Source: Lachnospiraceae bacterium 3-1 (GTDB lineage Bacteria > Bacillota > Clostridia > Lachnospirales > Lachnospiraceae). Taken from it: 64,000 bases of DNA. The notes below the pieces were generated by a model. The model had not been told where the DNA came from and ran no database searches. It worked only from the letters and a program-made list of their open reading frames with translations. Position 1 is the first letter of the stretch, and the number at the start of each line of letters is the position of its first letter. This document shows positions 52-28,025 of this stretch, piece by piece. The stretch is taken from NCBI GenBank assembly GCA_000403255.2, contig KE159591.1:493216-557215 (forward strand), written 5' to 3'. The translations under genes and the position numbers were made by a program.

Positions 52-3000
52 TTAGTCAAGCTCCAAAATAGATGGAACATCCTGTGATAATGCAACAAGC
101 AAGGAATAGCCAATCCCGCTCATGCCTAACATGAGGCCATATGGCAGCAATGGCCTTTCCTTTATGTAATCTGGAAATTTCAAAGCAAGCTTCTGGTAAG
201 TACACTCACATTCCCTTTTTAATCCTTCATCCTCCAATATCCCTCCAATGCGCCCAATTAGCTCAATATTTCCAATGTCTCCATGGCAATAACAAATATT
301 GTTTCCAAGTGCATGGCGTTTCATATTTTTTAAATTTTGTAACAACTCTTCTTTTTCTTTCTCAACGCCACCTCTGCTCTTCCACTGTTTTATCTGACTA
401 TACAAAATTCCTGGTGCGCCATGGCACCATCCGTAGGAATAATCATTCCTTCCCAAAACCGTTTTCCAGTTATGTTTTTCCTTGACATACATTTTTTTCA
501 CAAAAGCATGGGAACGATCCAATACCTCTTTTAGCTCATCTGAAGGATACCTTTCATACACACTTGTCAATGCTTCTTCTATCCCACAACTACCATGGGC
601 ATATCCTGAATAAACATGATCATTCAAACCACTATACCATGCAATACTCCCATCCTTCCACACTTTCTTTTGGGCAATCAAATGACTTGTCAGCAACTGT
701 ATCATTTCCTTTGCCAAGTCTTTGACTCTCCCTTGAAAACGCTTCTGCAAACTAATACATACCTTAATGGCTCCCGCCGAACCGCTGATAATGTCATAGT
801 TTCTATCCCGGTGATAGATTTTTTTCATTCGTAATAAGCCTTCCTCCACAAGCCCCAGCATGTTCTCATCTTTTGCTTCCAGATAAAACTTGCTAAACAC
901 ATAGATATAGCCGCTTAACCCATTGAACGGACCAATTAAATAAGAAGAATACTCATCGATTTTTTGCATTCTGTGAATCACGCCATGCACACATGCATAC
1001 GCCGCATCTAAGTATGTCTTTTTTCCAGAAGCTTTCCATAAATATAGGAAAAACAATCCAATGCCAGACGTCCCGCTATATAAATCACCTTCTACTGGCA
1101 ATAACTCATAATTAATGTGGTCGTCCCCTACAGGCATAAAATTTATCCAGGATAACTGCCATTCTCCATGAACCCGTGCTTCCTTCGCTTCCCTTAACAA
1201 TTTTTTCCCAATTGCCTCCGCCATCTGTAAATATGGAATACTGACTTCAGGGCTTTTGCTCCACTTGGAATTTGTCAACCAAATACGCCTATAGTCTTCC
1301 ACATTCTTGGATAAAAAAGCATGATCAATGATATCCTTTTGCTTTTGTAAATCATCCATACTAAAATGATTTATTTTTTCCTCTACCAACTCATATGGTG
1401 TTTTCTGAAAAAAAAGAGGAAGCGCTTCTTGGGCAGAATTCCTCATAACGCCAGTATGGATATTCACCTCAAAAAAAGGGACATCTCCAATCATCATATC
1501 TTTGATTTCAGATACAACAATCTGATTTTCCTGCTTTTTTACTTTGTATGCCATTCGATGCAGCAAAACATATCTATGGGCTTTCACTCTCATAAAATCT
1601 GGATGACTGCTGGTAAACATTAATTTTGTATACAAATAGGTAGGTCTGTAAATAACCCTTGTATTTACACCACCGAACCATTCTTTTATGGACGCCGCCA
1701 GATCTTTTTTATTCTTCATAATGAAACGATAAGCATCCTCAAATCCCTGCATAATAAAATCGCGGTAATCTGAGGCATTGGCAGCCACACCGTGATACTT
1801 CGCAACATTCTTCTGTGGCTGAATCATATAATCAGATTTTTCCAAACATATCTCATCTGTCTCTTTGTTTTGTATCATTAAAATCTTAAATGGCGAAACC
1901 TGCTGCTTTTCTCCGCCAAATCCACTAATATCCACAGAACTGCTTCCCTTATCATATGGGTTGGTCAAATGCATTGGCAGCAGCCCGATGGAATAAACAG
2001 AATCATTAATACTGTCCAATGCTGCCTCATATGCTGTTTTTTCATTTTCAATATTCTTATGCTCTAATTTGGAGTGAAATAATGCTTCTAGATCTATCAT
2101 AACCGGATATTCCCCATGGGCAATCAAATTCTCATGATGGATATCTTTCCCATTCAGGGAATATAACATTGCCATTAGCACGCCTGAGCGATAATAGTAT
2201 CGCTCAAGCTGCTGTTCCTCTTCACATTCCTTCTGGGATATATACTCAATAAATCCATATTCTCCAAAATCAAGCAATTTCGCTTCATACAACGCCTTCT
2301 CTTTCAGAGATATTCCTGCATTCATTGCTTTGGAATAACGTAAAAATCCAATTTCCACACCCATGTTTCTTGGTTTATAGATTAACTTCTTACCATTCGT
2401 GAATGTAATAGAAGCAACCGTCCTTCCCCCTCGATGGGAATCTCCCAGCCCAAGCTGAATATTTTCAATAAGAACATTCCGCTCTTCCCCAAAAAACTTT
2501 TTCATGAGTTCTGGATAATTCATCTGAATACGTTCTATCATTTCCACAATTGCAAAAACAGTATGTTTGAGAACTTCCATTTGCATATCCAACAATTCCT
2601 GATATTCTGAATAAAATTTTTTTATATAAGATTTTGACCTCCATCTTCGATCCGTATAATCGATATAACGTTTTCTTTTATCATCCCCTTTTAGTCGTTT
2701 TTCCGTCTTTTCCACATGGATTTCAGTGATAAAAGTTCTAATTGAGATTTCCCTTAGCCTTAAACATATTTCCTCCATGAGAGATTTTAAAATGCTTTCC
2801 TCATTTCCATATATCCGGCTGCTCTTTACGGCCTCTAGCAATCGTTTGATTTGGTCTTTTTTATATAAGAGAAGGGGGTAAAACATATTATCCATATGAT
2901 TACCTTCAATAAATCTATCCCATTTTTCTGAAGAACAAATGAATTCTTCCTGTTGGGACAACCAAACCATAAACTCCCGATGATTTCCCTTATGTTCATT

Positions 3001-3144
3001 CCAAAACTTAGCGATTTCCTTCTCGTTAAATGACCCGCATACATTTAACATGTCCCTAAGTTCCTCTTCTTTTTTTACCTCTGGAAATAGTGATTTCCAA
3101 TAGTTCCAGACATCTGCTTCTGAAACTTTGTCATATAATAGCAT
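52..3144 (-). CDS. lanM: Class II lanthipeptide synthetase LanM (copy 1)
   Basis: Bifunctional enzyme of 1030 aa that would dehydrate Ser/Thr in a precursor peptide and close thioether rings. The N-terminal dehydratase (DUF4135) region carries GDSH near residue 234, YKPR near 256, HHEN near 336 and a DLE near 351. The C-terminal cyclase (LanC-like) region keeps both zinc-ligand motifs, WCHG (Cys about 907) and YCHG (Cys about 953), so it looks catalytically complete. Length is normal for LanM. The start has GGAGG six bases upstream. It lies 17 bp after an AgrD-like peptide gene and is probably co-transcribed with it from the direct-repeat promoter at 3391-3455. No cysteine-rich precursor is seen beside it; its substrate may lie left of the window. 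Confidence 0.95.
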   Translation of the reverse strand: MLLYDKVSEADVWNYWKSLFPEVKKEEELRDMLNVCGSFNEKEIAKFWNEHKGNHREFMVWLSQQEEFICSSEKWDRFIEGNHMDNMFYPLLLYKKDQIKRLLEAVKSSRIYGNEESILKSLMEEICLRLREISIRTFITEIHVEKTEKRLKGDDKRKRYIDYTDRRWRSKSYIKKFYSEYQELLDMQMEVLKHTVFAIVEMIERIQMNYPELMKKFFGEERNVLIENIQLGLGDSHRGGRTVASITFTNGKKLIYKPRNMGVEIGFLRYSKAMNAGISLKEKALYEAKLLDFGEYGFIEYISQKECEEEQQLERYYYRSGVLMAMLYSLNGKDIHHENLIAHGEYPVMIDLEALFHSKLEHKNIENEKTAYEAALDSINDSVYSIGLLPMHLTNPYDKGSSSVDISGFGGEKQQVSPFKILMIQNKETDEICLEKSDYMIQPQKNVAKYHGVAANASDYRDFIMQGFEDAYRFIMKNKKDLAASIKEWFGGVNTRVIYRPTYLYTKLMFTSSHPDFMRVKAHRYVLLHRMAYKVKKQENQIVVSEIKDMMIGDVPFFEVNIHTGVMRNSAQEALPLFFQKTPYELVEEKINHFSMDDLQKQKDIIDHAFLSKNVEDYRRIWLTNSKWSKSPEVSIPYLQMAEAIGKKLLREAKEARVHGEWQLSWINFMPVGDDHINYELLPVEGDLYSGTSGIGLFFLYLWKASGKKTYLDAAYACVHGVIHRMQKIDEYSSYLIGPFNGLSGYIYVFSKFYLEAKDENMLGLVEEGLLRMKKIYHRDRNYDIISGSAGAIKVCISLQKRFQGRVKDLAKEMIQLLTSHLIAQKKVWKDGSIAWYSGLNDHVYSGYAHGSCGIEEALTSVYERYPSDELKEVLDRSHAFVKKMYVKEKHNWKTVLGRNDYSYGWCHGAPGILYSQIKQWKSRGGVEKEKEELLQNLKNMKRHALGNNICYCHGDIGNIELIGRIGGILEDEGLKRECECTYQKLALKFPDYIKERPLLPYGLMLGMSGIGYSLLVALSQDVPSILELD

Positions 3145-3161
3145 TGCAATCCTCCAATCAC

Positions 3162-3341
3162 CTAGGAATGGTCATTTTTCTTTTGTGTCTCCTCATGCAT
3201 TCTTTCTTGAGCAAGACGTTTTAGGCATCCTGGCTTTTCTACTTCATGCATACCAAATGATAATGAACGAGATGCGGCTCCATACCGTTCTGCATATTTA
3301 ATTAACTTATCTCCAAGCTTTTTTACTATCTTTTTTCTCAC
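3162..3341 (-). CDS. agrD: AgrD-like autoinducing peptide precursor
   Basis: Peptide of 59 aa starting at GTG, with AGGAGAGG eight bases upstream; a longer frame upstream has no ribosome site. It has a basic amphipathic N-terminus (RKKIVKKLGDKLIKYAERYG), a short small-residue stretch (AASRSLSFGM), then HEVEKPGCLKRL. This last part aligns by eye with the DEVEVPKELTQL tail that follows the autoinducer in staphylococcal AgrD. The expected ring region has serines and no cysteine, so a lactone rather than a thiolactone is inferred. The single Cys lies in the C-terminal recognition tail. It is the first gene of an operon with lanM1, divergent from the AgrC-type kinase. The alternative, that it is a LanM substrate, cannot be excluded. 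Confidence 0.7.
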   Translation of the reverse strand: MRKKIVKKLGDKLIKYAERYGAASRSLSFGMHEVEKPGCLKRLAQERMHEETQKKNDHS

Positions 3342-3390
3342 GATATACACCTCTCCTGTTTTTCTTTTTCTTCTGGAATATAACAATTTT

Positions 3391-3455
3391 ATTATATAAT
3401 AAAAATCACTATTTTATCTTTTTTGTCGTAAATGTGCGTTTTTGAATCGTAAATG
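3391..3455 (-). promoter_or_regulatory. LytTR/AgrA-type direct repeats and promoter of agrD-lanM1
   Basis: Read on the minus strand: CATTTACGA (3447-3455), 12 bp, then a second identical CATTTACGA (3426-3434), then 29 bp, then TATAAT (3391-3396). Two 9-bp direct repeats 21 bp apart are the known binding format of AgrA-like LytTR regulators. There is no good -35 box, as expected for an activated promoter. Transcription would begin about 40 bp before the agrD GTG. The same layout recurs at 13548-13612. Confidence 0.75.
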
Positions 3456-3464
3456 ATATTTTTC

Positions 3465-3493
3465 TTGCCATTTTACTCACAAAAGATTATAAT
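3465..3493 (+). promoter_or_regulatory. Sigma-A promoter of the agrC-like gene
   Basis: TTGCCA (3465-3470), 17-bp spacer, TATAAT (3488-3493), ending 29 bp before the kinase ATG. It is divergent from the agrD-lanM1 promoter, and the regulator repeats lie between the two. It is near consensus, so expression is probably constitutive. Confidence 0.75.
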
Positions 3494-3522
3494 GAAGTTA
3501 TATGACTTTAAGGAGTTCTTTT

Positions 3523-4827
3523 ATGATTACAATATATTTGATTGCTTCAATATTTATTGCGTTTATGTTAACTTGTGATATTTTTATATTGACCCATCCA
3601 CATCTTTCCATAAAGAAATACCCTATTTTCTTTTTATCCTTTTCAGTACTTTTTTTTATACAAGCGTATCTAAACTTTTCCCCTCTGTTATTTATTATAC
3701 TAGTGGCGAACTCTATCCTGTTAGTGAAATTCACTAAGCAATTATATTCGTTTTTTTATATTCCAATTGGTTATATTTTAAACTGCGTTTTAATCAATTT
3801 AATGGGATTTGCAGCACATATACTATGGGGTCTCTCCATTGAAGAATTAAATGCTGATAAATTTTCTCTTATAACACTTGACACCTGTACAATAGCAGCG
3901 TCTTGTCCCGTCCTTTATTTAATCAGACGATTGCTTGAGCGATACCTTATCCATACGTTTGAAAAAATGAACAAAAAATTGCTTGCTTTAATCTCTTCAA
4001 CCCTTTTGCTTTGTGCCTTTATGAGTTTCACGATGGCTTCTTTTTTTGATACACTGGAAATTACACGCAGAGAGTTCTTTTTAATGGTTGCTTCCCTTAT
4101 CCTTTATTTTCTGTTTACCATAAGTATGATCCTTATTGTACTGCACACAGCCAAAAAGAATTACGAAGCCCAGAAAAAAGTGGAGTATCTGGAAAACTTA
4201 AATGAGTATACCAAGAACCTGGAAATGGTATACAATAACCTGCGTTCCTTCAAGCATGATTATGTCAATATTATGGCTTCCCTAGCTGCATATATTGATG
4301 AGAAAAAATATGAGGAGCTGGGAACCTTTTTCTATGAACATATTTTACCAATGCAAAAAAACCTGACACAGAAAAATGGAGCATTGAACAACTTATTACA
4401 TGTGAAAATCTTGGAGCTGAAAAGTATTTTATATACCAAATTGCTCTTAGCTGTCAACCAGGATATCGAAGTGAATATCGATATCCCAGATGAAATTGAT
4501 TCTGTTCACATGGATCCCGTTGATTTGACCAGAATGCTTGGCATATTCCTGGATAACGCCATAGATGCATGTCTGGAAACCGAACATCCAGTCATTAATT
4601 TTCATCTGGGTAAAATGAATGAAGATATCGTATTTATAATATCAAATACATATCTTGACAAAGGGCTTTCCGTCGCACAGATGCATAAAAAGGAAGCAAC
4701 CACAAAGGGGGACGGCCATGGCATCGGCCTATACAATGTGTCTGAAATATTGAACCGCTATGATAATATTTATCATGAGACCTTAACGGAAGATGGCTTG
4801 TTCATACAACAAGTCCAGATATCATAA
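3523..4827 (+). CDS. agrC: AgrC-type sensor histidine kinase (GHKL family)
   Basis: Membrane kinase of 434 aa. About six hydrophobic segments fill residues 1-210, followed by a coiled linker. The phospho-acceptor is in FKHDY (His about 245). The ATP-binding GHKL domain shows an N-box FLDNAIDAC (Asn about 345) and a G-box GDGHGIGL (about 397-403). This matches peptide-pheromone receptor kinases of the AgrC/ComD class. ATG at 3523 is chosen over an ATG 21 bp earlier because AGGAG lies seven bases upstream of it. It is transcribed divergently from agrD-lanM1 and sits between agrD and agrB, so it probably senses the processed AgrD peptide. No response regulator gene is present in the window. Confidence 0.9.
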   Translation: MITIYLIASIFIAFMLTCDIFILTHPHLSIKKYPIFFLSFSVLFFIQAYLNFSPLLFIILVANSILLVKFTKQLYSFFYIPIGYILNCVLINLMGFAAHILWGLSIEELNADKFSLITLDTCTIAASCPVLYLIRRLLERYLIHTFEKMNKKLLALISSTLLLCAFMSFTMASFFDTLEITRREFFLMVASLILYFLFTISMILIVLHTAKKNYEAQKKVEYLENLNEYTKNLEMVYNNLRSFKHDYVNIMASLAAYIDEKKYEELGTFFYEHILPMQKNLTQKNGALNNLLHVKILELKSILYTKLLLAVNQDIEVNIDIPDEIDSVHMDPVDLTRMLGIFLDNAIDACLETEHPVINFHLGKMNEDIVFIISNTYLDKGLSVAQMHKKEATTKGDGHGIGLYNVSEILNRYDNIYHETLTEDGLFIQQVQIS

Positions 4828-4924
4828 GGGCTGTCGCACTAAACACAACATATACAAGATATAGTATAGAAGAAAGTTCTAAACTAACTATATCTTGTAT
4901 CATTTTTCTTAATGCGACAGCCCC
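4828..4924. terminator. Large bidirectional terminator between agrC and agrB
   Basis: Two nested inverted repeats separate these convergent genes. The outer arms are GGGCTGTCGCA (from 4828) and TGCGACAGCCC (to 4923). The inner arms are TATACAAGATATAGT (from 4851) and its near-complement ending at 4900. T/A-rich stretches flank the arms. Confidence 0.7.
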
Positions 4925-4925
4925 T

Positions 4926-5486
4926 TTACAAATTACTCGTTTTATTAAAAATTGGGAAAATTGTAATCGTACCTAAGCTTGCCCCTGCTGCAAGTCCCTT
5001 TGCCCAATCATTTGCAAGAAATATAGATACAGCAATATAGATACAGACAATTACCATACTCTCCCATTTTCTTACTTTTAAGTATTTCGGATTTACAGGA
5101 TTATTTACTGTCCCCTGGGGCGCGAATAACCCTACCAAAACAAGATCAACCATCAGCAAAAGAATACATGCCGGAAGAGGCATATTTACATGATGGACGA
5201 ATACCCCTCCTCCAATTGCAATCGAGCTTGTAGCCAGAAAACACGCCAATCTTGTCTTCATATGGAATCCCCCTGCAAATAAACGCAATACCATGCATCC
5301 AATAAAACAAATGAATGATTCTTTCAAATAACCAACGATCACACATAGAACAAAAACAACAGACAGAATCATAATCTGATCCAATATCACTTCCAGCATA
5401 TATTCCATCTTGATGCATTCTTCTTCCGTTCGGGCATATATCCCGTTCATTTTTTCAACAATCTTATGACAAATCTTCTTTATCAT
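4926..5486 (-). CDS. agrB: AgrB-type accessory gene regulator protease
   Basis: Membrane cysteine endopeptidase of 186 aa that cleaves and cyclises AgrD. The family signature RLFAGGFH contains the catalytic His (about 75), and the catalytic Cys is about residue 82 in RLACFLA. A later APQGTVNNP segment matches the family's conserved APxxxxxxP motif. Four or more hydrophobic helices follow, and the length is typical. A GGAG ribosome site precedes the ATG. It is the last gene of the permease-lanT2-precursor-lanM2-lanT1-agrB operon, not beside agrD, which lies 1.6 kb away beyond agrC. Its product must therefore act on a peptide made from another transcript. Confidence 0.92.
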   Translation of the reverse strand: MIKKICHKIVEKMNGIYARTEEECIKMEYMLEVILDQIMILSVVFVLCVIVGYLKESFICFIGCMVLRLFAGGFHMKTRLACFLATSSIAIGGGVFVHHVNMPLPACILLLMVDLVLVGLFAPQGTVNNPVNPKYLKVRKWESMVIVCIYIAVSIFLANDWAKGLAAGASLGTITIFPIFNKTSNL

Positions 5487-5504
5487 CGTCTCTTCACTCC
5501 ATCC

Positions 5505-7634
5505 CTATGCACTTTTTTTCCGGGCATGGTAGAGTTTTGCATAAGCTCCGTCATGCTTCATTAATTCCTCATGTCTCCCCACCTCCTGGATCTTGCCATG
5601 ATCCAGGACAATAATCTTATCTGCGTCTATAATCGTAGATAACCTATGGGCAATGACAATTCGGGTACAGTCTTTCTCACCCAGATAATCACTGATTTTC
5701 CTCTCATTTTCATAATCAAGGGCGCTGGTTGCCTCATCCAATATAACCAAATCATTCTTATGAATAATCGCTCTTGCCAAAGCAATTCTCTGACGTTGGC
5801 CACCGGATAAATTCATTCCCATATCAGAAATCATGGTGTAGTATTTCATAGGCATTTGCTCAATTTCTCTCTGAATTTGAGCCACCTCAGCAGCCTTCTT
5901 CACTTCGTCTAATCCAAGCTCTTCCTGGTTCATTCTGATATTTTCATAAATGCTTTGATTAAATAATGTCATATCCTGGGGTACCACGCCAATTTGTTTG
6001 CGAAGCTCACTTTTATTAATCTGGCTGATGCTTACCCCGTCATATAATATATCACCATTTGTTGGCTCATATAACCCTAAAATGAGTTTTGCAAGGGTAC
6101 TTTTTCCAGAACCTGACGCCCCAACAATTGCTACTTTTTCTCCTTTTTTGATATGAAGATCAATATCTGTTAATACATTTTCAGATGTTCTCGTATAAGC
6201 GAAGGAAACATGATCAATATCTACATCTCCTGATACCTTGACGGTCACTGGTTTCTGCGGATTTTTCTCATTCTCAGAATCTATAATATCGTGAAGTCTT
6301 TCCATATAGGCGCTTGCTACTACAAAATCATTCCAGAAATTGTAAAGTGAAATTCCTGTTGTAAAAAAGCTTCCTGCCAGGGAATAAATTGCCATACTTT
6401 CTCCCAGCGTCATTTTCCCTTGCATGGCTCCATAAATACCTAATCCAAGTAAAAAAATCGGTGCAATGTTTTGCACAAAGGATAATACCGATGTATAAAT
6501 ATTGATCACACAACTTTTTTTCCCATAAGAATTCAAACATCTTTCATATGCTTTTTTCCAATTTTTCCAGGTTTCATCTTCCATCCCCGATGTTTTAATT
6601 GCAAACATAGAGTAAATAGTTTCTACTTGAACAGTCTGCAGCATTGTGTTTTTCATCATATCATCCTGGTTCACTTCAGAAATCAATGTTTTCATAGAAA
6701 TAATAAACACACCTGTAATTATGAAGAGCACGGTTGCCACCAACGTAATGGATGCAGATTTCATAAACATATATACAAATATGAAAACCAGCGCCCCTGC
6801 CTGCATAACCGTTTGAACAAGTTGTTCTGACAGCAGATCTCTAATACTTGTAATACTACTCATTCGGAAGAGAATATCTCCAGGCGTTCTTCCTTCAAAA
6901 TATTTATAAGGAAGCATTAGGATTTTCGAGAAAACTGACTTAGATAAATGAAAATCCGTTTCTATTTGCAGTATAATCAATTTTTTTCCTCGAAAGAAAT
7001 TGATGATCCCCAAAAGCATTGCCAGCCCAATCACAACAAATCCATAATTATGAATCGACTCTGAATCAATAATCTTTTGAATCATAATAGGAACACTCAT
7101 CTGTAAAGCATATGAAACAATAGACATCCATACAATCACAAGCATTGCTTTTTTTCTCTTTTTCATATGCTCAAGCACAATATTCCAATTGTTGGATTTT
7201 TCCTTGATTGGTTTATAGTTTTCAGTAGGCTGAACCACCATAACAACATTACAATAACTTTGCTCCATGGTTTCTCTGTCAACTTTCCTTCTGCCAAAAG
7301 CCGGATCCACAATATAGTTAATATCATTTTTTATCTTTTCCAGTACAACAAAATGTTCGTTATTCCAAAAGATAATGGCAGGAAGCGGCAGTTTGTCAAG
7401 GGCAGAAATATCTGCTTTATAAATCCTTGTTTCCATACCTCTTTTTCTTAAATAATCTGCAATATACGACAGCTTTAATCCATCCCGGCCAGCCTCTAAT
7501 GTTTCTCGTATTTTGGTAACCCTATCCTGACCCTTATAATATCTTAATATCATTGTAGCGCAGCAAAGCCCGCATTCTGTTTGCTGCATCTGCTCCACAT
7601 ATGGTACCTTTCTTTTATGTATCATATTTCTCAT
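5505..7634 (-). CDS. lanT: Peptidase-containing ABC exporter LanT (copy 1)
   Basis: Bacteriocin/lanthipeptide exporter of 709 aa that removes the leader at a double-glycine-type site and pumps the core out. The N-terminal C39 peptidase has Cys21 (QTECGLCC), His94 (EHFVVLEK) and Asp110 (IVDPAFG), so the triad is intact. Five or six membrane helices lie at about 160-440. The ATPase has Walker A GASGSGKST, signature LSGGQRQR and Walker B VILDEATSALD. It lies between lanM2 and agrB with short gaps, in one operon. It is clearly related to the second exporter at 10621-12780, so a duplication is likely. Confidence 0.93.
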   Translation of the reverse strand: MRNMIHKRKVPYVEQMQQTECGLCCATMILRYYKGQDRVTKIRETLEAGRDGLKLSYIADYLRKRGMETRIYKADISALDKLPLPAIIFWNNEHFVVLEKIKNDINYIVDPAFGRRKVDRETMEQSYCNVVMVVQPTENYKPIKEKSNNWNIVLEHMKKRKKAMLVIVWMSIVSYALQMSVPIMIQKIIDSESIHNYGFVVIGLAMLLGIINFFRGKKLIILQIETDFHLSKSVFSKILMLPYKYFEGRTPGDILFRMSSITSIRDLLSEQLVQTVMQAGALVFIFVYMFMKSASITLVATVLFIITGVFIISMKTLISEVNQDDMMKNTMLQTVQVETIYSMFAIKTSGMEDETWKNWKKAYERCLNSYGKKSCVINIYTSVLSFVQNIAPIFLLGLGIYGAMQGKMTLGESMAIYSLAGSFFTTGISLYNFWNDFVVASAYMERLHDIIDSENEKNPQKPVTVKVSGDVDIDHVSFAYTRTSENVLTDIDLHIKKGEKVAIVGASGSGKSTLAKLILGLYEPTNGDILYDGVSISQINKSELRKQIGVVPQDMTLFNQSIYENIRMNQEELGLDEVKKAAEVAQIQREIEQMPMKYYTMISDMGMNLSGGQRQRIALARAIIHKNDLVILDEATSALDYENERKISDYLGEKDCTRIVIAHRLSTIIDADKIIVLDHGKIQEVGRHEELMKHDGAYAKLYHARKKSA

Positions 7635-7658
7635 ATTCCCTCGCTCTCAACTTGTTGC

Positions 7659-10412
7659 CTACATCACTTCCAGCCCCAGTACGGATGGAAGCTCTTTCCA
7701 TTTCATTCGTAATAAACCATATCCTATGCCTGGCAAGCCAACCATAAATGACATAAGTCCTTTTAATTGAGGAATTCCATACTCTACGCCATCCTGTTTG
7801 ATTTTTTCTTCTTCCTCAAAATACCATTTTTCCACTAACTGTTGTAAATCATTATTCTTCGTATTTCTTGCAATCACATGTAATATCTCAAGATTCCCGA
7901 CTCTTCCATGACATAAACTATCATTGAAACCATCTTGCTTTTTTACTTGCATACTTTGAATCATTTCATCCAAAGAATTTTGATATTTTGAGTAAAATCT
8001 ATTTTGTTTCATATAATAACTTCTTCCCAGCAAAATTCCCGGTGCACCGTGACACCAAAACAAACAACAATTTTGTTTTTCCTCTCGCAAATCCAACCAA
8101 TTATTTTTCTCTTTTGAATAATAAAAATTTTCTTTTTGTTCCAGTAATTTTGCAAATTCAAGATATTCCATGTTTCCTGTAACAGCATATGCCTTCATAA
8201 AAGCAAACTGAAACCCGGCGTATCCATGGGAAAATCCCGTCCAAAATTGATTATCTGAAATACCCTTTCTTAAAAAACAACAATACTGATTGATCAGTTC
8301 CTGTATTTTTTCATCCTTCTCATATTCGTAAATATTTGCCAAAACTGCAACTGCTCCAGAAGCGCCTGCAATCACATCATAAACTTTCTCGTTACTACAG
8401 TCATATATTGCAATACGTTCCATTCCTTTCTGATACCGCTCATAATATTTCTGATTACCAGTCATTCGATACAAGTTGTAATAGAGATAAATATATCCAT
8501 AAAATCCGCTAAAAACACCCGTAGATAAACTAGCCTTTTCCATTGGACTAATCTCATCCATTCCAGCCAAAGCTGCCTCTGCAAAATCCTTATCTTCCTT
8601 TCCCTGAGTAAACTGCGCATAGGCAAATAAAAATAAAATCATACCGATTCCATCATACAAAGAATAGGAAATACTTCCTAAGACAGGTCGTTTTCCACCT
8701 ATATTTACATCAATAAATGTGCATGCTGTTCTATCTTCCTTCCATATGGCATAGCTTCTAATTGTATTTACAATACCTTCCAAAACAGTGGCGTTGCCCT
8801 TTTTTGTTTTTATTTTTTCTGAAAATGAGCCGTTTTCTTTCATAATATCATTTTTTGCCAACATAGTGGCGTTTCGTATGAAAGCAAGCTGTCTTTCCCG
8901 ATCTTCCTCACTTAATTCTAAAACATTTTTGGTGACTTTCTCACGCAAAGTTTCTGCAAAAAAATCCTCTTCGATCAGTTTCGTTTTCGTGTATAAACCC
9001 TTCCCATCAAATTGTGCACAAAAGTAAGGAACGTCGTGTTCTAGCATCTGTTCTACTTCCACCTTACCCTGTTGATTATTTCTTACATTAATTTTATGAA
9101 GAAGACTTTCAGCCTTCTTTTTGGAACCACAGTAATTTGGATGCAGGGAAGCTGCCAAAAATCTTTCGTAGACAAAAGTTCCCCTCAGAACCTGTCTATA
9201 AATACTATTTTCAAAATAACTTAACATATGGGATATCACATATTCTCGATTCTCTAATAAAACATCATAAGTCTCTGTAAATCCAGCTTCAATGTCTGCC
9301 ACATAATCAATGTAGTCTACTATTTCCCCATTAACTCTGACAATATTGTCCATTTCATCCGTTACAAAATACACCTCATCAAAATGAATCTTGGTAGTTC
9401 CTTTTTCAACCAGTTGAAGACATTTTAACTTGTTAGATTTCTGGCCCCCCACAGCGCCTAAGCCGCTAATATCTATGTCCAAAATAGAATCCTTAAAAAC
9501 AGAAGGCAGCAAACTTGTTGCAAACACAGAATGGGAAAAAACATCTCCCATACGAAAAGTCAAATCACTTGATTTTTCCTTCCTTTTTCGCGCCGTTAAT
9601 AAAGTTTCTAAATCAATAAACATTGGATATTCCCCACAAGGGATAATATTCTCTCCATGAAGATCCGACGTATCAAAAATATAGAATAACGCCATTGCTC
9701 TCCCCACTCTGTGATAATAATGTTTCACTTCCTCTTTAGAATGACATTCATGCCCTTTCACAAACTCCTGAAAGCCATAATCTCCCTTTGTTACAACCCT
9801 TGGATTAATGAGTTCATAGCCGTCCAATTGTTCATTTAGCCATTGGCAGTATTTTGTAAAAGCTATTTCAGGACACATATTTCTTGGTTTATAAACCAGC
9901 TTCTGCCCCTCTGCAAAAGATAATACAGAAACTGTTTTCCCATGATTGTGCGTATCCCCTTGGCCAAATTCAATTCCCTCTAGAGAATTCACATCAATTT
10001 GAAATACCCCTTTGATCTCATTCTTACATTCCTGTAGCCGTGTATAGATTTCCCACACATTATCCTCAATGGTTATCATTTTCATGTCCATTTTTATTTT
10101 TAAAATTGGGTATTTTCTATAAATCTCCTCTGGATTTTTGTCCATGTGATCACAAAAAACATCATATTCTAATTTTTTCTGATTCAATTCGAAAATCATG
10201 GTTCTGGAAGAATATTCAATCAGACAACCTTTTGCGTAATGCAAAATATCCCTTCTAATAGATTCTGAAACAGGCTGCCCGATTTTTCTTTCAACTTCAT
10301 CTATTTTTTCTTCCAATCTTTGCAAAAATGGATGACAAAACTCATCAAACACGCCTTCATTTCCCAACTGTTCTATTATCTTCTCTTTCTTTTTTTCTGA
10401 GTTCGTTATCAT
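7659..10412 (-). CDS. lanM: Class II lanthipeptide synthetase LanM (copy 2)
   Basis: A 917-aa LanM, diverged from copy 1. The dehydratase motifs are GDTH (about 152), YKPR (about 174), HGEN (about 252) and DLE (about 267). The cyclase zinc motifs are WCHG (Cys about 787) and LCHG (Cys about 834). All expected catalytic landmarks are present. The start is supported by GGGAAAGGGAG just upstream. It lies 33 bp downstream of the leader-bearing precursor gene 10446-10628, the natural substrate candidate, although that peptide has no Cys for ring closure. Confidence 0.95.
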   Translation of the reverse strand: MITNSEKKKEKIIEQLGNEGVFDEFCHPFLQRLEEKIDEVERKIGQPVSESIRRDILHYAKGCLIEYSSRTMIFELNQKKLEYDVFCDHMDKNPEEIYRKYPILKIKMDMKMITIEDNVWEIYTRLQECKNEIKGVFQIDVNSLEGIEFGQGDTHNHGKTVSVLSFAEGQKLVYKPRNMCPEIAFTKYCQWLNEQLDGYELINPRVVTKGDYGFQEFVKGHECHSKEEVKHYYHRVGRAMALFYIFDTSDLHGENIIPCGEYPMFIDLETLLTARKRKEKSSDLTFRMGDVFSHSVFATSLLPSVFKDSILDIDISGLGAVGGQKSNKLKCLQLVEKGTTKIHFDEVYFVTDEMDNIVRVNGEIVDYIDYVADIEAGFTETYDVLLENREYVISHMLSYFENSIYRQVLRGTFVYERFLAASLHPNYCGSKKKAESLLHKINVRNNQQGKVEVEQMLEHDVPYFCAQFDGKGLYTKTKLIEEDFFAETLREKVTKNVLELSEEDRERQLAFIRNATMLAKNDIMKENGSFSEKIKTKKGNATVLEGIVNTIRSYAIWKEDRTACTFIDVNIGGKRPVLGSISYSLYDGIGMILFLFAYAQFTQGKEDKDFAEAALAGMDEISPMEKASLSTGVFSGFYGYIYLYYNLYRMTGNQKYYERYQKGMERIAIYDCSNEKVYDVIAGASGAVAVLANIYEYEKDEKIQELINQYCCFLRKGISDNQFWTGFSHGYAGFQFAFMKAYAVTGNMEYLEFAKLLEQKENFYYSKEKNNWLDLREEKQNCCLFWCHGAPGILLGRSYYMKQNRFYSKYQNSLDEMIQSMQVKKQDGFNDSLCHGRVGNLEILHVIARNTKNNDLQQLVEKWYFEEEEKIKQDGVEYGIPQLKGLMSFMVGLPGIGYGLLRMKWKELPSVLGLEVM

Positions 10413-10445
10413 TTCATACTCCCTTTCCCAAAGGATTTACGCTTT

Positions 10446-10628
10446 TTAAAAGTCTAAATGCAGCATTTTTATAATAGATCTTGTCTCTTTTAATTTTACA
10501 TCATACTCTGTGTCCCAAACTTGCTTTGATGTATAGAAACCTGTAGCTGCTATCTTATCAATTTCCTCGAAGGACATCTCACGGATTCCCTCAACTTTAT
10601 CCAAATCAATGTTTTTTTTCTTACGCAT
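10446..10628 (-). CDS. Cysteine-free LanM/LanT precursor peptide
   Basis: A 60-aa peptide starting at an ATG inside the end of lanT2 (8-bp overlap), with AAAAGGGG upstream. The N-terminal part resembles class II leaders: EMSFEEIDKIAA fits the E-(L/V)-S-x-E-E-(L/I)-D-x-(I/V)-G-G pattern, with Ala-Ala in place of Gly-Gly. The inferred core after it, TGFYTSKQVWDTEYDVK onward (about 32 aa), has six Ser/Thr but no cysteine at all. A normal lanthionine cannot form in it. It may be dehydrated only, be cross-linked to another residue or peptide, or serve as a decayed or signalling substrate. Its position between exporter and LanM is exactly that of a lanA gene. Confidence 0.7.
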   Translation of the reverse strand: MRKKKNIDLDKVEGIREMSFEEIDKIAATGFYTSKQVWDTEYDVKLKETRSIIKMLHLDF

Positions 10629-12780
10629 ATGCTTTCCCCTTTTCATTTTTGTTTCGATATAGATCTGCATAAGCCCTATTTTGACTTAACAACAATTCAT
10701 GTGTCCCTTCTTCAACAATTTCACCATCATCTAACACTATAATTCTATCCGCATCTTGAATTGTTGAAAGACGGTGAGCCACAATTACTTGTGTACAACC
10801 ATTTCGTGCAAAATAATCTGAAACTTTTCTCTCATTAATATTATCCAAAGAGCTAGTCGCCTCATCCAAAATCATGAATTTGTTTCTTGATACAATGGCC
10901 CTTGCCAATGCAATCCTTTGTCTTTGTCCACCAGAAAGGTTCATACCCATATTGGAAACAACCGTATGGTACTTCATTGGCATTTGCTCAATTTCATCAT
11001 GGATCTGTGATATTTTTGCGGCTTCCATCACTTCTTCCAGAGAAATATCTTCATTATTCATTCGAATATTTTCCAGAATGGATTTATTGAATAAGTAAAT
11101 ATCCTGTGGTACGATACTAATATTTTTACGAAAATTTACTTTTTTAATATCATTTAAGTTCAATCCATTTACCAGAATATCCCCTTCGCTGGGCCTGTAT
11201 AAACCAAGCATCAATTTAATCAAGCTGCTCTTCCCAGAACCGGATTTCCCAACAATCGCAATTTTTTCGCCTGGCTTGATTTTCAGATTAATATTCTTTA
11301 ATATAGCTGGCGTACTCTTTGAATAGGCCATAGAAACATTTTTAAACTCTAAGGTATTCACTTCATGGATGGTCAACTGATTTTCTTCCTCTTTTTCTTC
11401 TTCTGCATGTAAGATATCATTCACACGATCCAAATACGAAGTAGCGATTACAGAATCATTCCACATATGAAATAACGCCACCGCTGATCCAAAAAATGTA
11501 TTTGCCAAAGAATAACATGCAATTGCCTGACCCATGGTCATTACATTGTCCCCTGATAAGGATAATCCAGCCCATAGAACCAAAAACGGCCCTAGCATTT
11601 GAAATAGTGATAAAACTGTTGTATAAATATTGAAAAACTTGTTCTTTATCTGATAAGCCTTCATTCCTCTACAATATTTGTTCAGCCAATTTGAGAAAAA
11701 CTGCTGTTCAATGCCAGCTGTTTTAATATTAAAAATGGATTGCACTGTTTCCACTTGTAAAGATTGCAGTTTTGTGTTTTCAATAATCTGAATCTGACTC
11801 GCTTCAATGATTTTCTTACGCATCAAAACTATGAACAAACCATTTAGTAAGAAGGCGCCTAACGCTGTTAAAGTCAAAAGTATAGAATGTAAAGACATGT
11901 ATACTAAAATAACCAAAATGAATCCAAGTTGAATCAGGCCATTCATTACACTATCCGCTAACAAATCCCGAATCACAGGTAAACAATTCAACCGGAAAAG
12001 CAAATCTCCATTGGACCTTCTTTCAAAAAACTGATACGGAAGCTTTAACATCTTCTGAAAGGTACTCTCTGTCAAATGTCTATCAATGATTAATTGCAAT
12101 CGAATCTGACTTTGCTTTCGTATAAAGGTAGTAAGGGAAAAAACAACACCTACCCCTAAAATAATTGCCAAATATACTTCCAATCCAGAAATTTTTGAAG
12201 CAGTCACACCATTATCAAAAATTTTCTGAACAATGACGGATAATAAAAGCTGCAGTCCATGGGAAAGAAAGGTAATCAAAAATGTGATATAAAACAGTTT
12301 TCTTTTTAATACGGTTTCCTTTAACACCCTATCCCATATATGCCTTTTTTCTCTCTTTGCTTGAAATTCCTCTGTTGGAACAATAATCATTACAACATTA
12401 GAGTATCCTTCCGCAAAATCCTCATAAGACAGGGCTGCTCTTCCAGTTGCAGGATCTACAATTGTAATTTTATGATCTGTGACCTTTTCAAGAATCACAT
12501 AATGCTGATTATTCCAAAATATAATTGCAGGCAGCGGCAATTCTTTCAATCCGCTCATTCCGCAAGAAAACACTTTAGAAAACAATTTCCTATTCTTTGC
12601 ATAGGTATACATCTGAGATAATTTTAAACCATCACGTCCTACATCCAACTCTTCTCGTATTTCAGCCAATGTTTCCTGGCTTTTATAATACTGCAAGATC
12701 ATGGCCAAACAGCATAACCCGCACTCTGTCTGCTGCATTTGTTCAATGTAGGGCACTTTAGACAAATGTGAACTCGCCAA
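10621..12780 (-). CDS. lanT: Peptidase-containing ABC exporter LanT (copy 2)
   Basis: A 719-aa exporter with the same architecture as copy 1. The C39 peptidase has Cys20 (QTECGLCC), His93 (QHYVILEK) and Asp109 (IVDPATG). A transmembrane domain follows, then an ATPase with Walker A GKSGSGKSS, signature LSGGQRQR and Walker B MILDEATSSLD. The start is a TTG with AAGGAGG seven bases upstream, and I see no better ATG. It is the second gene of its operon and overlaps the precursor gene by 8 bp. It probably exports and trims the 60-aa peptide, while copy 1 may serve a different substrate. Confidence 0.92.
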   Translation of the reverse strand: MASSHLSKVPYIEQMQQTECGLCCLAMILQYYKSQETLAEIREELDVGRDGLKLSQMYTYAKNRKLFSKVFSCGMSGLKELPLPAIIFWNNQHYVILEKVTDHKITIVDPATGRAALSYEDFAEGYSNVVMIIVPTEEFQAKREKRHIWDRVLKETVLKRKLFYITFLITFLSHGLQLLLSVIVQKIFDNGVTASKISGLEVYLAIILGVGVVFSLTTFIRKQSQIRLQLIIDRHLTESTFQKMLKLPYQFFERRSNGDLLFRLNCLPVIRDLLADSVMNGLIQLGFILVILVYMSLHSILLTLTALGAFLLNGLFIVLMRKKIIEASQIQIIENTKLQSLQVETVQSIFNIKTAGIEQQFFSNWLNKYCRGMKAYQIKNKFFNIYTTVLSLFQMLGPFLVLWAGLSLSGDNVMTMGQAIACYSLANTFFGSAVALFHMWNDSVIATSYLDRVNDILHAEEEKEEENQLTIHEVNTLEFKNVSMAYSKSTPAILKNINLKIKPGEKIAIVGKSGSGKSSLIKLMLGLYRPSEGDILVNGLNLNDIKKVNFRKNISIVPQDIYLFNKSILENIRMNNEDISLEEVMEAAKISQIHDEIEQMPMKYHTVVSNMGMNLSGGQRQRIALARAIVSRNKFMILDEATSSLDNINERKVSDYFARNGCTQVIVAHRLSTIQDADRIIVLDDGEIVEEGTHELLLSQNRAYADLYRNKNEKGKAYA

Positions 12781-12792
12781 AACTTTTCCTCC

Positions 12793-13518
12793 TTATAAAT
12801 CCTTTTTTTCAAAAATGGTTATGCCAACAATAGAAAATGCTATCCCTGTAACAATAAATACTATGATATTTTTGACACTCCAGTCTTGATACATCAGGAA
12901 TTGGTCTGATATGCAAAACAACACATAATCCATTGCTTTTTGCAAGCCCGTTATTTTCTGAGCCATCATTTGCAACATACTTGGCATAATCCAAAACAAT
13001 ACAATCAAATAAATAAAAGGTGTAATGGTTGTATGATGAAAGCATGTAATCATCACTGCTGTTGCTCCTATGGCAAAACCATAAATCATATAAATCATGA
13101 TTTCTTTTCCAATAGTCCCAACTAACATAGGCACTGTCCATGGCTGTTTGCAAATAATCAATGCAACGTCATATAAAATTCCGCCACATAAGCCAATAAC
13201 CATATTTGCAAGGGCTACACTCAAAATTTTTGCCGCAAGAATTTGGCCTCTGCTGCTTCTTGATGTAAAAACAAATGTTACTGTTCTTAAATCAAATTCT
13301 TCCCCCAAACTCTTTGCTGCCAAAAACATAATTAAAATACTGGCAAAATTCCCAAAAAATGCAATTACATTGTGTACCCCAAAACTTGTAGGAAACACAT
13401 ACGCGCCATACGTGATTCCTCCACCCATGACCAGTATCATAATTAGTCCCAACAAAAACTCTCTCTTTTTCAATAATTTTCTGACTTCCAACATTGCAAT
13501 GTTTATTGTCCTATTCAT
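12793..13518 (-). CDS. ABC-2 type permease subunit without an ATPase partner
   Basis: A 241-aa integral membrane protein with six predicted helices (first about residues 20-40, last about 215-235), of the ABC-2 permease type that in lantibiotic loci forms the LanEG immunity pump. It is first in the operon, directly behind the direct-repeat promoter, with GAAAGGAGAG before its ATG. No LanF-like ATPase lies beside it or elsewhere in the locus, so the pump is either incomplete or borrows an ATPase. The family assignment rests on hydropathy and overall pattern; an immunity role is inferred from context. Confidence 0.7.
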   Translation of the reverse strand: MNRTINIAMLEVRKLLKKREFLLGLIMILVMGGGITYGAYVFPTSFGVHNVIAFFGNFASILIMFLAAKSLGEEFDLRTVTFVFTSRSSRGQILAAKILSVALANMVIGLCGGILYDVALIICKQPWTVPMLVGTIGKEIMIYMIYGFAIGATAVMITCFHHTTITPFIYLIVLFWIMPSMLQMMAQKITGLQKAMDYVLFCISDQFLMYQDWSVKNIIVFIVTGIAFSIVGITIFEKKDL

Positions 13519-13547: not shown

Positions 13548-13612
13548 ATTATAAACATTTTTGACTCATATTCTCATTTTTTTCTTAAGTGGGGATAAAT
13601 CTGTCGTAAACG
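13548..13612 (-). promoter_or_regulatory. LytTR/AgrA-type direct repeats and promoter of the lanT2-lanM2-agrB operon
   Basis: On the minus strand: CGTTTACGA (13604-13612), 12 bp, CACTTAAGA (13583-13591), 29 bp, TATAAT (13548-13553). Repeat period (21 bp) and distance to the -10 box (29 bp) equal those upstream of agrD-lanM1. The second half-site differs from CATTTACGA at two positions. There is no recognisable -35 box. The first gene starts about 30 bp downstream of the -10 box. Confidence 0.7.
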
Positions 13613-13698
13613 TAAAAGTATATAGAGCAATTGTCCTCATAGACCATCGGAAATCGATTCTAACATATCTGTACTATTCCTGATGCCTGGTATCTCAA

Positions 13699-13727: not shown

Positions 13728-13795
13728 GATTGCAATTCAGTCAAGTCAAATCCTTTGATGGAATATCAATTGTAATAAATCGCGAGGCAGAGAAA

Positions 13796-15892
13796 ATGAT
13801 TCGAAAAGATAATCTTGAGTCTATGATACAAGCAATCGGCTATCAAAAAAGTGAGAAAGCAAACATATATGAAAAGAAATACGTACAATATGATTGTACT
13901 ATTATCGTGGATTTTAATGGTTCCGGTTCTATTATTTATCCTGAAGAGAAGGGAATGCGTATTACAAGGAAAACCACATGTAATTTTTCAGAACCTGAAA
14001 ATTTTGTAGTATTAGAATGTATTACAAGATTAATGGATAAAGGATACCGCCCAGAACACATTGAATTGGAAAAAGAATGGCCTCTTGGTCATAAAAAGAA
14101 AAGTGGTTTTGCAGATATTCTTGTAAAAGATGAAGAGGGAAAAACACTATTTATTGTAGAATGTAAAACCAGTGGCAATGAATATAAAAAGGAATATAAC
14201 AGTACCCTCAATGATGGCGGACAATTGTTTTCATATTGGCGGCAAGAAGGTAATTGTAAATGGCTTTCTTTGTATGCTTCTGATTTTGATGGAACCAAAG
14301 TATTCTATACAACGGAAACCATTGACTGTAGCGATGACGCCAATATCCTTGTATCCGCTAAAAAAGACAGTACCATCCAGTTATATAAAAATGCCCACAC
14401 TGCTGAGGAATTATATGCTGTGTGGAATGAAACCTATGATAAGCGTTTGTGCGGAGATGTTATTTTCCGAGAAGATTCACAAGCATATCAGATTGGCGTT
14501 AAGCCTCTTCGAAAGGCGGACCTTAAGGACTTTAGTGAAAACGATATTCAAATGTTGGGAGATTTATTTGAACAGTTACTGAACAAAGGATTCAAACAAA
14601 ATGAAGGACAGTTTTTTACTCCTATCCCCATTACACGATTTATCTGGGACAGTTTACCAGTAACACGCATAATCAAAAAGGCTGACGGCATAGAATTTCC
14701 CAAAATAATAGATTACGCTTGCGGCGCTGGGCATTTCCTTACACAAGGTTTTGAAGCGGTAAACGCAGCTATTTTATCCCTAGACCCGTCCTACCCTATT
14801 GACTATTCTTGGACAGAGCATAACATATTTGGTGTAGAAAAGGATTATCGTCTGGCTCGTGTTTCAAAAATATCACTCTTTATGCATGGCGCTGGGGATG
14901 GAAATATTGTCTTTGGAGACGGTCTTGAAAATTATCCAGACAAGGATATTTTACCTGAGTCCTTTGACATCTTAGTTGCTAATCCACCATACTCCGTAAA
15001 AGCATTTAAGCCTCATTTAAAATTAAAAAATAACAACCTTAAAATACTAGATAAAATTTCAAATGATGGTTCTGAAATCGAAACCTTGTTTGTAGAAAGA
15101 ATATCCCAACTTGTAAAACATGAAAAAAATTACTATGAATGGCAAGAGGATGAATATTTTAAAATGTACTATGATGCATTTGTTTCCTCTGCTGAATATG
15201 GAAATAAATCTAAGCAAAAAAATTTTAGAAAGCTTTCAAAAACAGAGCAATTAGCATGGTACAATGAGCATTTCTATAACTATGCACATACCATTGAAAA
15301 AGAAAAACTTACGTATTTTGCTCTTATCTATCAACAAACAACACTTATTATTACTGCACCTGATGATAACAAAGCACAAGAAAAGTTTTTAGGTTACAAA
15401 TGGAGTAACCGCAAGGGACAGGAAGGAATTCAGATCATTACACCAGGTGGTATGTTATATTCTGAAGATGATAGAAATACTGATCAGAAAGTTTGCGGAT
15501 TAATCCGAAGTTCTTTTTCTGATAAAAAGCATTTACCCCCTGAGCTTGATGCATATGCGTACTATCTGAATCTGAAAGATATGATAGACTTTAGTTCCCT
15601 TTCTTTTGGTACTTTTATGACTATTATTCGTTCAAAGTATCACCGCTATCTTTGGGCATACCTACAAAGTGATGATTTCAGAAATCAAATTACCAACGGA
15701 AAGACCATGTCTATCAACCAAATAACTACTAAAATGCTTGATAAAATCATGGTTCCTTTGCCAGATAAAGTAACCATCGATACATTCACAAAATTCGTAA
15801 TGGATATAGAAAAGAAAATAGATAGCTCTCAAACTATCATTGTTTCATTAAAAGAACAACAACAGGTGGTAATGAATAAGCATTTTTGTTAA
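13796..15892 (+). CDS. Restriction-modification polypeptide (HsdR_N-like + N6-MTase + TRD end), internally deleted
   Basis: A 698-aa reading frame. The ATG at 13796 has GAGG eight bases upstream; an earlier TTG lies inside the promoter. Residues about 60-150 resemble the HsdR N-terminal nuclease-like domain (GFADILV...FIVECKTSG, a D-ExK pattern). Then come the class I N6-adenine MTase motifs DYACGAGHFL and VANPPYS. In relatives, the stretch after ETLFVERISQLVK continues through the rest of the MTase (a ...VLPSS... strand). Here it jumps to a region normally found about 100 aa later, and the C-terminal specificity part is also shortened, joining an S-subunit-like tail. The frame is open, but activity is doubtful. 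The deletion call relies on my memory of the family. Confidence 0.7.
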   Translation: MIRKDNLESMIQAIGYQKSEKANIYEKKYVQYDCTIIVDFNGSGSIIYPEEKGMRITRKTTCNFSEPENFVVLECITRLMDKGYRPEHIELEKEWPLGHKKKSGFADILVKDEEGKTLFIVECKTSGNEYKKEYNSTLNDGGQLFSYWRQEGNCKWLSLYASDFDGTKVFYTTETIDCSDDANILVSAKKDSTIQLYKNAHTAEELYAVWNETYDKRLCGDVIFREDSQAYQIGVKPLRKADLKDFSENDIQMLGDLFEQLLNKGFKQNEGQFFTPIPITRFIWDSLPVTRIIKKADGIEFPKIIDYACGAGHFLTQGFEAVNAAILSLDPSYPIDYSWTEHNIFGVEKDYRLARVSKISLFMHGAGDGNIVFGDGLENYPDKDILPESFDILVANPPYSVKAFKPHLKLKNNNLKILDKISNDGSEIETLFVERISQLVKHEKNYYEWQEDEYFKMYYDAFVSSAEYGNKSKQKNFRKLSKTEQLAWYNEHFYNYAHTIEKEKLTYFALIYQQTTLIITAPDDNKAQEKFLGYKWSNRKGQEGIQIITPGGMLYSEDDRNTDQKVCGLIRSSFSDKKHLPPELDAYAYYLNLKDMIDFSSLSFGTFMTIIRSKYHRYLWAYLQSDDFRNQITNGKTMSINQITTKMLDKIMVPLPDKVTIDTFTKFVMDIEKKIDSSQTIIVSLKEQQQVVMNKHFC

Positions 15893-22905: not shown

Positions 22906-22957
22906 TATTGTACCCTCCTTAAAATTTGAATTGAAAACACATTTTACCATGTATTTT

Positions 22958-27900: not shown

Positions 27901-28025
27901 GACGTTCTCCTTTTCTCTTTACTCTTCCGCTCTCTTTTTGAATTTTCTAACATATCCATCAGAAGCTGTTTCCCTTCCTTGGTCAAAATCCCCGATTCAA
28001 TCTCCTTCTCTGCAATTTCTTCCAT
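27897..28025 (-). CDS. Short open frame (42 aa) overlapping the methylase end, possible truncated regulator
   Basis: An ATG-initiated frame, rich in Lys/Glu (MEEIAEKEIESGILTKEG...), whose TGA overlaps the MATE pseudogene ATG (ATGA coupling) and whose start lies inside the methyltransferase 3' end in another frame. MATE genes often follow small regulator genes, so this could be the stump of one cut off when the restriction genes arrived. No family is recognised and it may not be expressed. Confidence 0.3.
   Translation of the reverse strand: MEEIAEKEIESGILTKEGKQLLMDMLENSKRERKSKEKRRTS

Follow-up and report, generated by a model that had tools for sequence, protein, structure and literature searches.

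An agr-type signalling set embedded in a putative two-component lantibiotic locus of Lachnospiraceae bacterium 3-1

Gene content of the locus

The stretch of DNA analysed here (the window) comprises 64,000 nucleotides of Lachnospiraceae bacterium 3-1 (assembly GCA_000403255.2, contig KE159591.1, positions 493,216 to 557,215; G000:C21:493216-557215), whose genome (G000) is a 5.08-Mb assembly of 27 contigs. Its left end carries genes for class II lanthipeptide production with the components of an agr quorum-sensing system placed among them, and the possible control of the former by the latter is the subject of this report. The 15 kb to the left of the window (L005) were also read, a position in the window being equal to the L005 position minus 15000. 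All of the genes that an initial annotation had recognised in the window proved to be present, their families being assigned by Pfam and NCBIfam model searches and by motifs checked on the translations.

One arm of the locus lies on the minus strand and begins with an ABC-2-type permease (12793-13518; PF12679, E value 4e-5, below the cut-off), followed by LanT1, an ATP-binding cassette (ABC) exporter with a C39 peptidase domain (10621-12780; Pfam families and motifs), a cysteine-free peptide of 60 amino acids (aa) which we term pepX (10446-10628), the full-length class II lanthipeptide synthetase LanM2 (7659-10412; 917 aa; TIGR03897, E value 1e-205), a second C39-peptidase ABC exporter, LanT2 (5505-7634; PF03412, PF00664, PF00005), and the AgrB peptidase (4926-5486; PF04647, E value 2.4e-25). 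The distances between these genes range from an overlap of 8 base pairs (bp) to 33 bp, so that a single operon, closed by agrB, is plausible. An AgrC-type sensor kinase is encoded on the plus strand (3502-4827; PF14501, E value 4e-18; NF046015, E value 3e-55, under that model's cut-off), its start being likelier at 3523, behind a ribosome-binding site recognised by eye. The second arm, again on the minus strand, begins with an AgrD-like signal precursor of 59 aa with a GTG start (3162-3341) and continues after a gap of 17 bp with the full-length synthetase LanM1 (52-3144; 1030 aa; TIGR03897, E value 7e-227). The placing of a kinase between AgrB and AgrD, and the assignment of these two to separate operons, had both been noted in the initial annotation and are borne out here.

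From lanM1 the second arm runs on leftward into L005 with a LanF-type ATPase (L005:14162-15046), a LytTR response regulator (L005:13262-13984; PF04397, E value 2e-21, and PF00072), a NADPH-FMN-reductase-like protein (L005:12509-13261; PF03358), a haloduracin-alpha-like precursor (L005:12019-12231; PF14867, E value 4e-10; NF000539, E value 2e-22), a beta precursor similar to LchA2/BrtA2 (L005:11808-11990; NF038161, E value 1e-15) and a 60-aa membrane peptide (L005:11549-11731), the ATPase and the membrane peptide being identified by sequence without a library search. The regulator lies where it had been predicted, leftward of the window. Gaps of 177 bp ahead of the regulator gene and 277 bp ahead of the alpha gene make more than one transcript possible in this arm.

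The best match of LanM1 in the PDB is LicM2 (6st5), as it is for LanM2 (E value 7e-105). LanM1 contains the motifs YKPR, DIHHEN, IDLEAL and two CHG, and LanM2 contains YKPR, DLHGEN, IDLETL and two CHG; both therefore have the zinc and dehydratase motifs expected of a catalytically complete LanM. LanT2 has QMQQTECG, EHFVVL, VDP, Walker A and LSGGQ, and LanT1 has QMQQTECG, QHYVIL, VDP, Walker A, LSGGQ and MILDEA. The alpha and beta precursor genes adjoin, as in two-component lantibiotics, and the corresponding pair of a related genome (L079, see below) is 80% and 73% identical. The peptide beside LanM2 had initially been taken for the precursor; it is pepX, which has no cysteine, and the alpha and beta precursors are found outside the window, in L005. 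These sequences mark the locus as a cluster for a two-component lantibiotic of the haloduracin/lichenicidin type, in which a full agr set is embedded. Among 29 genomes of the genus, a close LanM2 was found only in that of the organism itself, the next best match being 32% identical.

Recurrence of the layout and the split AgrB clade

Flanks were read for 27 of the 81 places listed outside the organism's own genome, and for 10 new places from a second listing. The arrangement exceeds chance, because it recurs in two other genomes, G009, which belongs to another genus of the same family (Lachnospiraceae; loci L040/L074, met again as L075), and G397 (L076/L079). Both have the order permease-LanT1-pepX-LanM2-LanT2-AgrB, a convergent AgrC, and a divergent AgrD-LanM1, and G397 additionally has the LanF, regulator, FMN reductase, alpha, beta and membrane peptide genes; the G009 contig stops inside lanM1, and the remainder of that arm is outside the sequence. 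Protein identity to the window is 43-81% overall (values for G009 and G397, respectively: LanT1, 79 and 81%; LanT2, 75 and 79%; LanM2, 57 and 55%; AgrB, 48 and 47%), and the permease orthologues, 65% and 66% identical, occupy the same place. A related layout was found in G082 (L043 and L073), where the regulator, AgrB, AgrC and AgrD are split in the same manner beside four similar precursors and one LanM; LanT1-pepX-LanT2 lie farther on with no second LanM. One of the four precursors was searched, and its match was salivaricin M.

In the window, in L040, in L076 and in six further loci, agrB and agrD do not have the adjacency that characterizes agr. A convergent agrC opposite AgrB with agrD beyond it accompanies nine AgrBs (window, L040, L076, L043, L041, L101, L045, L047 and L105), and in L042 and L044 agrC is convergent with no agrD visible. 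We placed these in a tree of 25 AgrBs (reading frames >140 aa; 28 selected loci plus the window), which has long end branches and moderate support. The 11 AgrBs with a convergent agrC form one fork of this tree (support 81/90; the clade was recovered in 813 of 1000 bootstraps), with a single change of layout. For the other 14 AgrBs, an adjacent AgrD candidate on the same strand was seen in nine cases and none was recognised in five.

Among the nine split loci with a visible AgrD, five have no LanM in the approximately 20 kb read, and the split is therefore independent of the lan genes. The neighbours behind agrD in these five were, by eye, small secreted proteins (one with DUF2712) or lipoprotein-like proteins with ABC transporters. 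Judged from the tree, the split AgrB..AgrC..AgrD layout is a trait of one AgrB clade rather than something specific to the lan locus; the tree gives no order of the split and the association with lan genes.

Components of the agr system and the predicted signal

AgrB passes the PF04647 cut-off and has a His75-x6-Cys82 pair with the spacing of H77 and C84 in AgrB of Staphylococcus aureus (passages of PMC10196373), as expected of this membrane peptidase; the pair was found in all seven AgrBs checked from the same clade. The kinase has the motif FKHDYVN and a DNA-containing N box, and its best NCBIfam model is that of AgrC (NF046015), at 188 bits, where the model cut-off is 500. Together with the LytTR response regulator it provides the sensory pair that is usual for an agr system.

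The AgrD-like peptide of the window, in which a Ser and five further residues are followed by HEVEKPGCL, is 57% and 47% identical to its orthologues in L040 and L076, respectively. In an alignment of ten AgrDs, the residues K25, S26, E33, P37 and L40 are each kept in at least nine of the ten rows, the window having R at the column of K25. In all ten, exactly five residues separate (K/R)(S/C) from (H/Y/F)(E/D)xxx(P/T); the peptides thus have the ring Cys or Ser and the conserved acidic tail of an AgrD precursor; the ring residue is Ser in nine and Cys in one (L045), and Thr replaces Pro in one (L046). In S. aureus, AgrD is cut by AgrB between M32 and D33 (passages of PMC10196373), and from this comparison the ring is probably of six residues and in most cases a lactone, with the sequence SLSFGM in the window. 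Six-membered rings have also been predicted for the agr systems adjoining the clostridial gene CA_C0082 (portions of PMC10301443), and the agr signal of S. intermedius is a serine lactone (cited in a portion of PMC10482373).

The direct vicinity of agrD and lanM1, which adjoin in each of the three full-layout loci, would fit a role of LanM1 in modifying AgrD, the signal then being a lanthionine-containing or dehydrated peptide. We regard this as quite improbable. Inspection of AgrD by eye shows no class II leader, the AgrD pattern is kept by members of its clade that have no LanM, and the LanM-like neighbour in Clostridium acetobutylicum was dispensable for the signal, as stated in portions of PMC10301443.

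The conservation of the agr proteins also bears on a second alternative. The kinase might sense the lantibiotic itself, in the manner of nisin, an example of lanthipeptide autoinduction, in which case agrB and agrD would be passengers. That lanthipeptides can signal their own production is documented (portions of PMC10301443). The AgrB His-x6-Cys pair is nevertheless intact in all seven proteins checked, AgrB and AgrD are both kept in the three full-layout loci, and the model nearest to the kinase is AgrC, all of which makes this explanation improbable.

Direct repeats and promoters

The agrC-agrD intergenic region of the window contains an exact direct repeat, ATTTACGA, with a period of 21 (3423-3457, minus strand), followed 29 bp downstream, on the agrD side, by TATAAT. 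Similar repeat pairs, with 2, 2 and 3 mismatches, are present in L040, L076 and L043, respectively. A matrix trained solely on these four agrC-agrD sites then matched the promoter of the other arm, in the window at 13580-13614 (minus strand; score 17.5; TATAAT 29 bp downstream), in L076 (22.2) and in L040 (17.0), as well as a site upstream of agrB in L043 (30.0). In 4 Mb of second-order random sequence there were no sites scoring at least 17. The 29 other loci (499,523 bases) contained four, of which two are at agr promoters (L041 and L047). At nine of the eleven listed sites, the second repeat is followed after 28-30 bp by a perfect TATAAT, and in all three full-layout genomes both arms have the same repeat type with TATAAT 29-30 bp downstream. 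When the repeat was written as a pattern with at most one mismatch, G000 had two matches, both at these two promoters, while three of the four matches in G009 were on the locus contig and both matches in G082 lay in the locus, as did three of the six in G397.

LytTR-binding repeats with a 21-bp period just upstream of the promoter have been described (portions of PMC6193735), and AgrA of S. aureus recognises pairs of direct repeats ahead of its promoters (portions of PMC4227749). The pairs found here have this LytTR/AgrA layout, i.e., direct repeats about 21 bp apart and near a promoter, and would be candidate binding sites for the regulator.

These repeats bear directly on the proposal of the initial annotation that the separation of agrD and agrB constitutes an AND gate, in which the two operons answer to different inputs and the signal matures only when both are on. 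AgrB and AgrD do belong to different transcription units flanking agrC, the signal presumably requires both of them, and the region ahead of lanA has no repeat pair, so that not every part need share one input. The identical repeat type and TATAAT distance in the two arms, at the only two sites in the genome that match with at most one mismatch, indicate instead one input and one regulon, and the same split is common to agr systems of the clade that have no LanM nearby. The AND gate was rejected and appears unlikely to us; since both arms carry the same repeat, double positive feedback is indicated and not a two-input gate. The wider notion of a cell-density switch for peptide production survives: the locus has a full agr set embedded in it, whose likeliest function is to let the signal control the making of the peptides.

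A sigma-70-like promoter for agrC, TTGCCA-17-TATAAT (3465-3493, plus strand; 11/12 in the consensus scan), lies approximately 10 bp from the first repeat, and the regulator gene is preceded by the near-consensus TTGACA-17-AATAAT, so that basal expression of sensor and regulator is possible. The sigma-70 scans were near the level of shuffled sequence (48 found against 56 expected in the agrC scan, and 18 against 13 in the regulator-gene scan), and single matches therefore mean little; a general terminator scan was likewise close to the shuffles. The matrix scan found no repeat pair ahead of the regulator gene, nor ahead of the left ABC genes at a threshold of 9.

Repeats of the LytTR type were also seen elsewhere in the relatives. 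In G397, overlapping repeats at L076:3908-3963 precede a BceAB-like transporter (3985-6789; ABC_tran, FtsX) beside the lan locus, which is likely to be a self-protection arm. In G009, just upstream of the lan locus (L074:2767-3099), a repeat at 2767 with TATAAT 30 bp downstream precedes, at 2893, a 68-aa hydrophobic peptide without a Pfam match that in our labelling resembles a circular bacteriocin, with membrane and ABC genes behind it. Outside the lan locus of G397 (G397:C6), three head-to-tail half-sites at L113:2556-2606 lie upstream of a 546-aa protein, with genes for a 636-aa membrane protein and for a response-regulator-like product on the opposite strand.

Regulation of the locus

We consider it likely that one agr circuit switches both arms of this two-component lantibiotic locus, including its own signal genes, by shared positive feedback. 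AgrC and the regulator would be made at a basal rate, and AgrD and AgrB would come from the two arms. Cleavage and cyclisation of AgrD by AgrB would yield a small cyclic peptide that builds up outside the cell and activates AgrC; its ring is probably a serine lactone of six residues. AgrC would then phosphorylate the LytTR regulator encoded downstream of lanM1, and this would bind the direct repeats ahead of both arms (agrD-lanM1-lanF... and permease-lanT1-pepX-lanM2-lanT2-agrB). Signal precursor, peptidase, both synthetases and both exporters would thus rise together in one positive-feedback loop, with the signal acting back on AgrC. The genes, their order and their catalytic motifs are observed directly, as are the occurrence of the layout in three genomes and the repeats and promoter spacing common to both arms; binding of these repeats by the regulator, the signal structure and induction at high density are deduced from them.

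Several observations weigh against this circuit. The AgrD-like peptide has no match in Pfam or NCBIfam. Two of the four sites in the control loci are unexplained (one inside a regulator gene in L045, the other in L068), and at two of the eleven listed sites, both in L043, a perfect TATAAT at 28-30 bp is missing. The pattern for the genome search was composed once the sites were known, its permitted mismatch having been chosen so that the second site would match, and the reversed pattern gave four matches in G000 (one each in G009, G082 and G397); it is therefore the place of the matches that counts and not their number. The sequence ahead of lanA, although conserved in the window and L079 with TTAGGTATAATC among the shared letters, has no repeat pair (best score -2.8), so that these boxes do not explain induction of the precursors. 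Finally, G000 has three further AgrB genes (L058:2119-2849, L058:17429-17998 and L059:5554-6195), and cross-talk is therefore possible. One of them is adjoined by a 49-aa AgrD of another type, with a kinase and a regulator upstream (L058:22-2849, partly by eye). The initial annotation had held that a complete agr set elsewhere in the genome, using another peptide, would speak against its proposal; such a set is literally present here, but several agr systems can coexist and its presence is not decisive.

It might also be supposed that the agr system and the lan locus are mere neighbours with no regulatory link. Indeed, L126-L128, which are further LanM loci of the genus covering 18-20 kb each, have no match to AgrB, AgrC or AgrD of the window (tblastn, E value 1e-3) or to pepX, and LanM loci therefore do not need agr. 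Because the two sets of genes are interleaved in three genomes rather than merely adjoining, and because the repeats common to both arms have no other match with at most one mismatch in G000, we give this explanation hardly any credence.

If the shared agr circuit is correct, quorum control of an antibiotic peptide in the Lachnospiraceae becomes directly testable, since the cargo lies within about 17 kb together with the signal gene, its peptidase, the sensor, the regulator and the repeats, and two relatives are available for comparison. Considerably more tentatively, we speculate that the split agr clade in this family evolved into dedicated switches for secreted-peptide operons, with agrB and agrD placed on the two sides of agrC so that each can be carried in a cargo operon, a six-residue serine lactone as the signal, and repeats that bind the cargo arms (the lantibiotic, and in relatives the circular-bacteriocin-like peptide or the BceAB-like transporter) together as a single regulon; pepX might, in the lan branch, be a third component or a second signal exported by LanT1/LanT2. 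The split members without lan genes that were scanned argue against this wider reading, having a repeat at agrD only (L041), at agrB only (L047) or at no agr promoter (L045). The clade also provides a sequence handle, composed of the AgrB clade, the AgrD pattern and the repeat, for finding other agr-switched peptide operons.

The cysteine-free peptide and neighbouring features

The pepX product ends with Ala-Thr-Gly and belongs to no Pfam or NCBIfam family. Its orthologues are 72% (L040), 72% (L076) and 44% (L073) identical to that of the window; three of the four proteins lack Cys and the fourth (L073) has one, and the comparison of the four did not reveal the core Cys with Ser/Thr that marks a lanthipeptide precursor. 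The ratio of nonsynonymous to synonymous substitution rates (dN/dS) was 0.12 and 0.09 in two close pairs, with dS values of 1.9 and 2.5 that are near saturation; in a third close pair dS was saturated. Since both close orthologues are cysteine-free and the gene changes slowly, the idea that pepX is a damaged lanthipeptide gene was rejected. By eye, the hydrophobic spacing of its leader resembles that of the alpha precursor (LTEQDMETLAGAG compared with MSFEEIDKIAATG) and is class-II-like, and the gene stays beside the two LanTs even where no LanM2 adjoins (L073). An AlphaFold model gave one long helix with a mean predicted local distance difference test score of 67 and was not used. Matches were obtained in three of 397 genomes of the family (its own, G009 and G082) and two of 392 genomes of the order (its own and G521), of which the G521 match (E value 1.8e-4) was dropped, as it lies inside a 723-aa frame with no match to the lan or agr proteins of the window in its 20-kb flank. 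From these sequence features, pepX is probably an additional exported peptide, and it represents a conserved small candidate of this type.

FMN-reductase-like genes were also seen near small peptides with a single terminal Cys in two LanM loci of the genus (L127 and L128; G716 and G722), and the reductase may therefore be a tailoring enzyme. A third full-length LanM is encoded in G000 (L060; G000:C3:13011-15656), with no AgrB match nearby and weak matches to the kinase (24%) and the regulator (29%) 3-6 kb off. To the right of the lan locus, the window contains DNA methyltransferase and restriction-type genes (13730-15892, 20269-22950 and 27983-35791), with the families N6_Mtase, Eco57I, M_Eco57I_C, N6_N4_Mtase and D12.

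Comparison with known systems

Portions of PMC10301443 report agr genes inside lanthipeptide clusters in Clostridium saccharobutylicum and some Bacillus paralicheniformis, and, for C. hungatei and C. cellulovorans, lanthipeptide clusters near the agr locus. Among the open-licence papers searched, none was found that describes pepX, the split layout of agr or the repeats that go with it, a scope that makes this negative weak evidence, and the term AgrB is absent from the main text of the Hungate1000 bacteriocin survey (PMC13289728) and of a survey of ribosomally synthesised and post-translationally modified peptides in anaerobes (PMC4289311). The initial statement that no such system had been described thus stands for the exact layout, within the literature searched, but not for the link of agr with lanthipeptides, which is in print in the cited portions of PMC10301443. 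As far as searched, the split layout variant is new and the presence of agr genes in or next to lanthipeptide clusters was known already.

In the clostridial agr-LanM system of CA_C0082, as described in portions of PMC10301443 (Humphreys et al. 2023), a LanM-type gene likewise lies next to agr and a six-membered ring is predicted. There, however, the LanM-like protein is shortened and without zinc ligands, and agrBD form one operon, whereas here neither LanM is of that type, both being full-length (1030 and 917 aa) with two CHG motifs each, and agrB and agrD are apart. The agr lactone of S. intermedius shares the replacement of the ring Cys by Ser and differs in the predicted ring size and in gene order. 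As in the canonical agrBDCA system, the locus has AgrB, AgrD, AgrC and a LytTR regulator, with active-site motifs and LytTR-type repeats; it differs in that agrC separates agrB and agrD, and in that the predicted Ser ring is one residue longer than in S. aureus.

With haloduracin and lichenicidin, the locus shares an alpha peptide (PF14867, NF000539) and a beta peptide (NF038161, LchA2/BrtA2), two LanMs that are nearest to LicM2 among solved structures, C39 exporters and ABC genes. In haloduracin a single LanT serves both peptides. The locus described here differs from these systems in its two LanTs, its conserved cysteine-free extra peptide and its embedded agr circuit.

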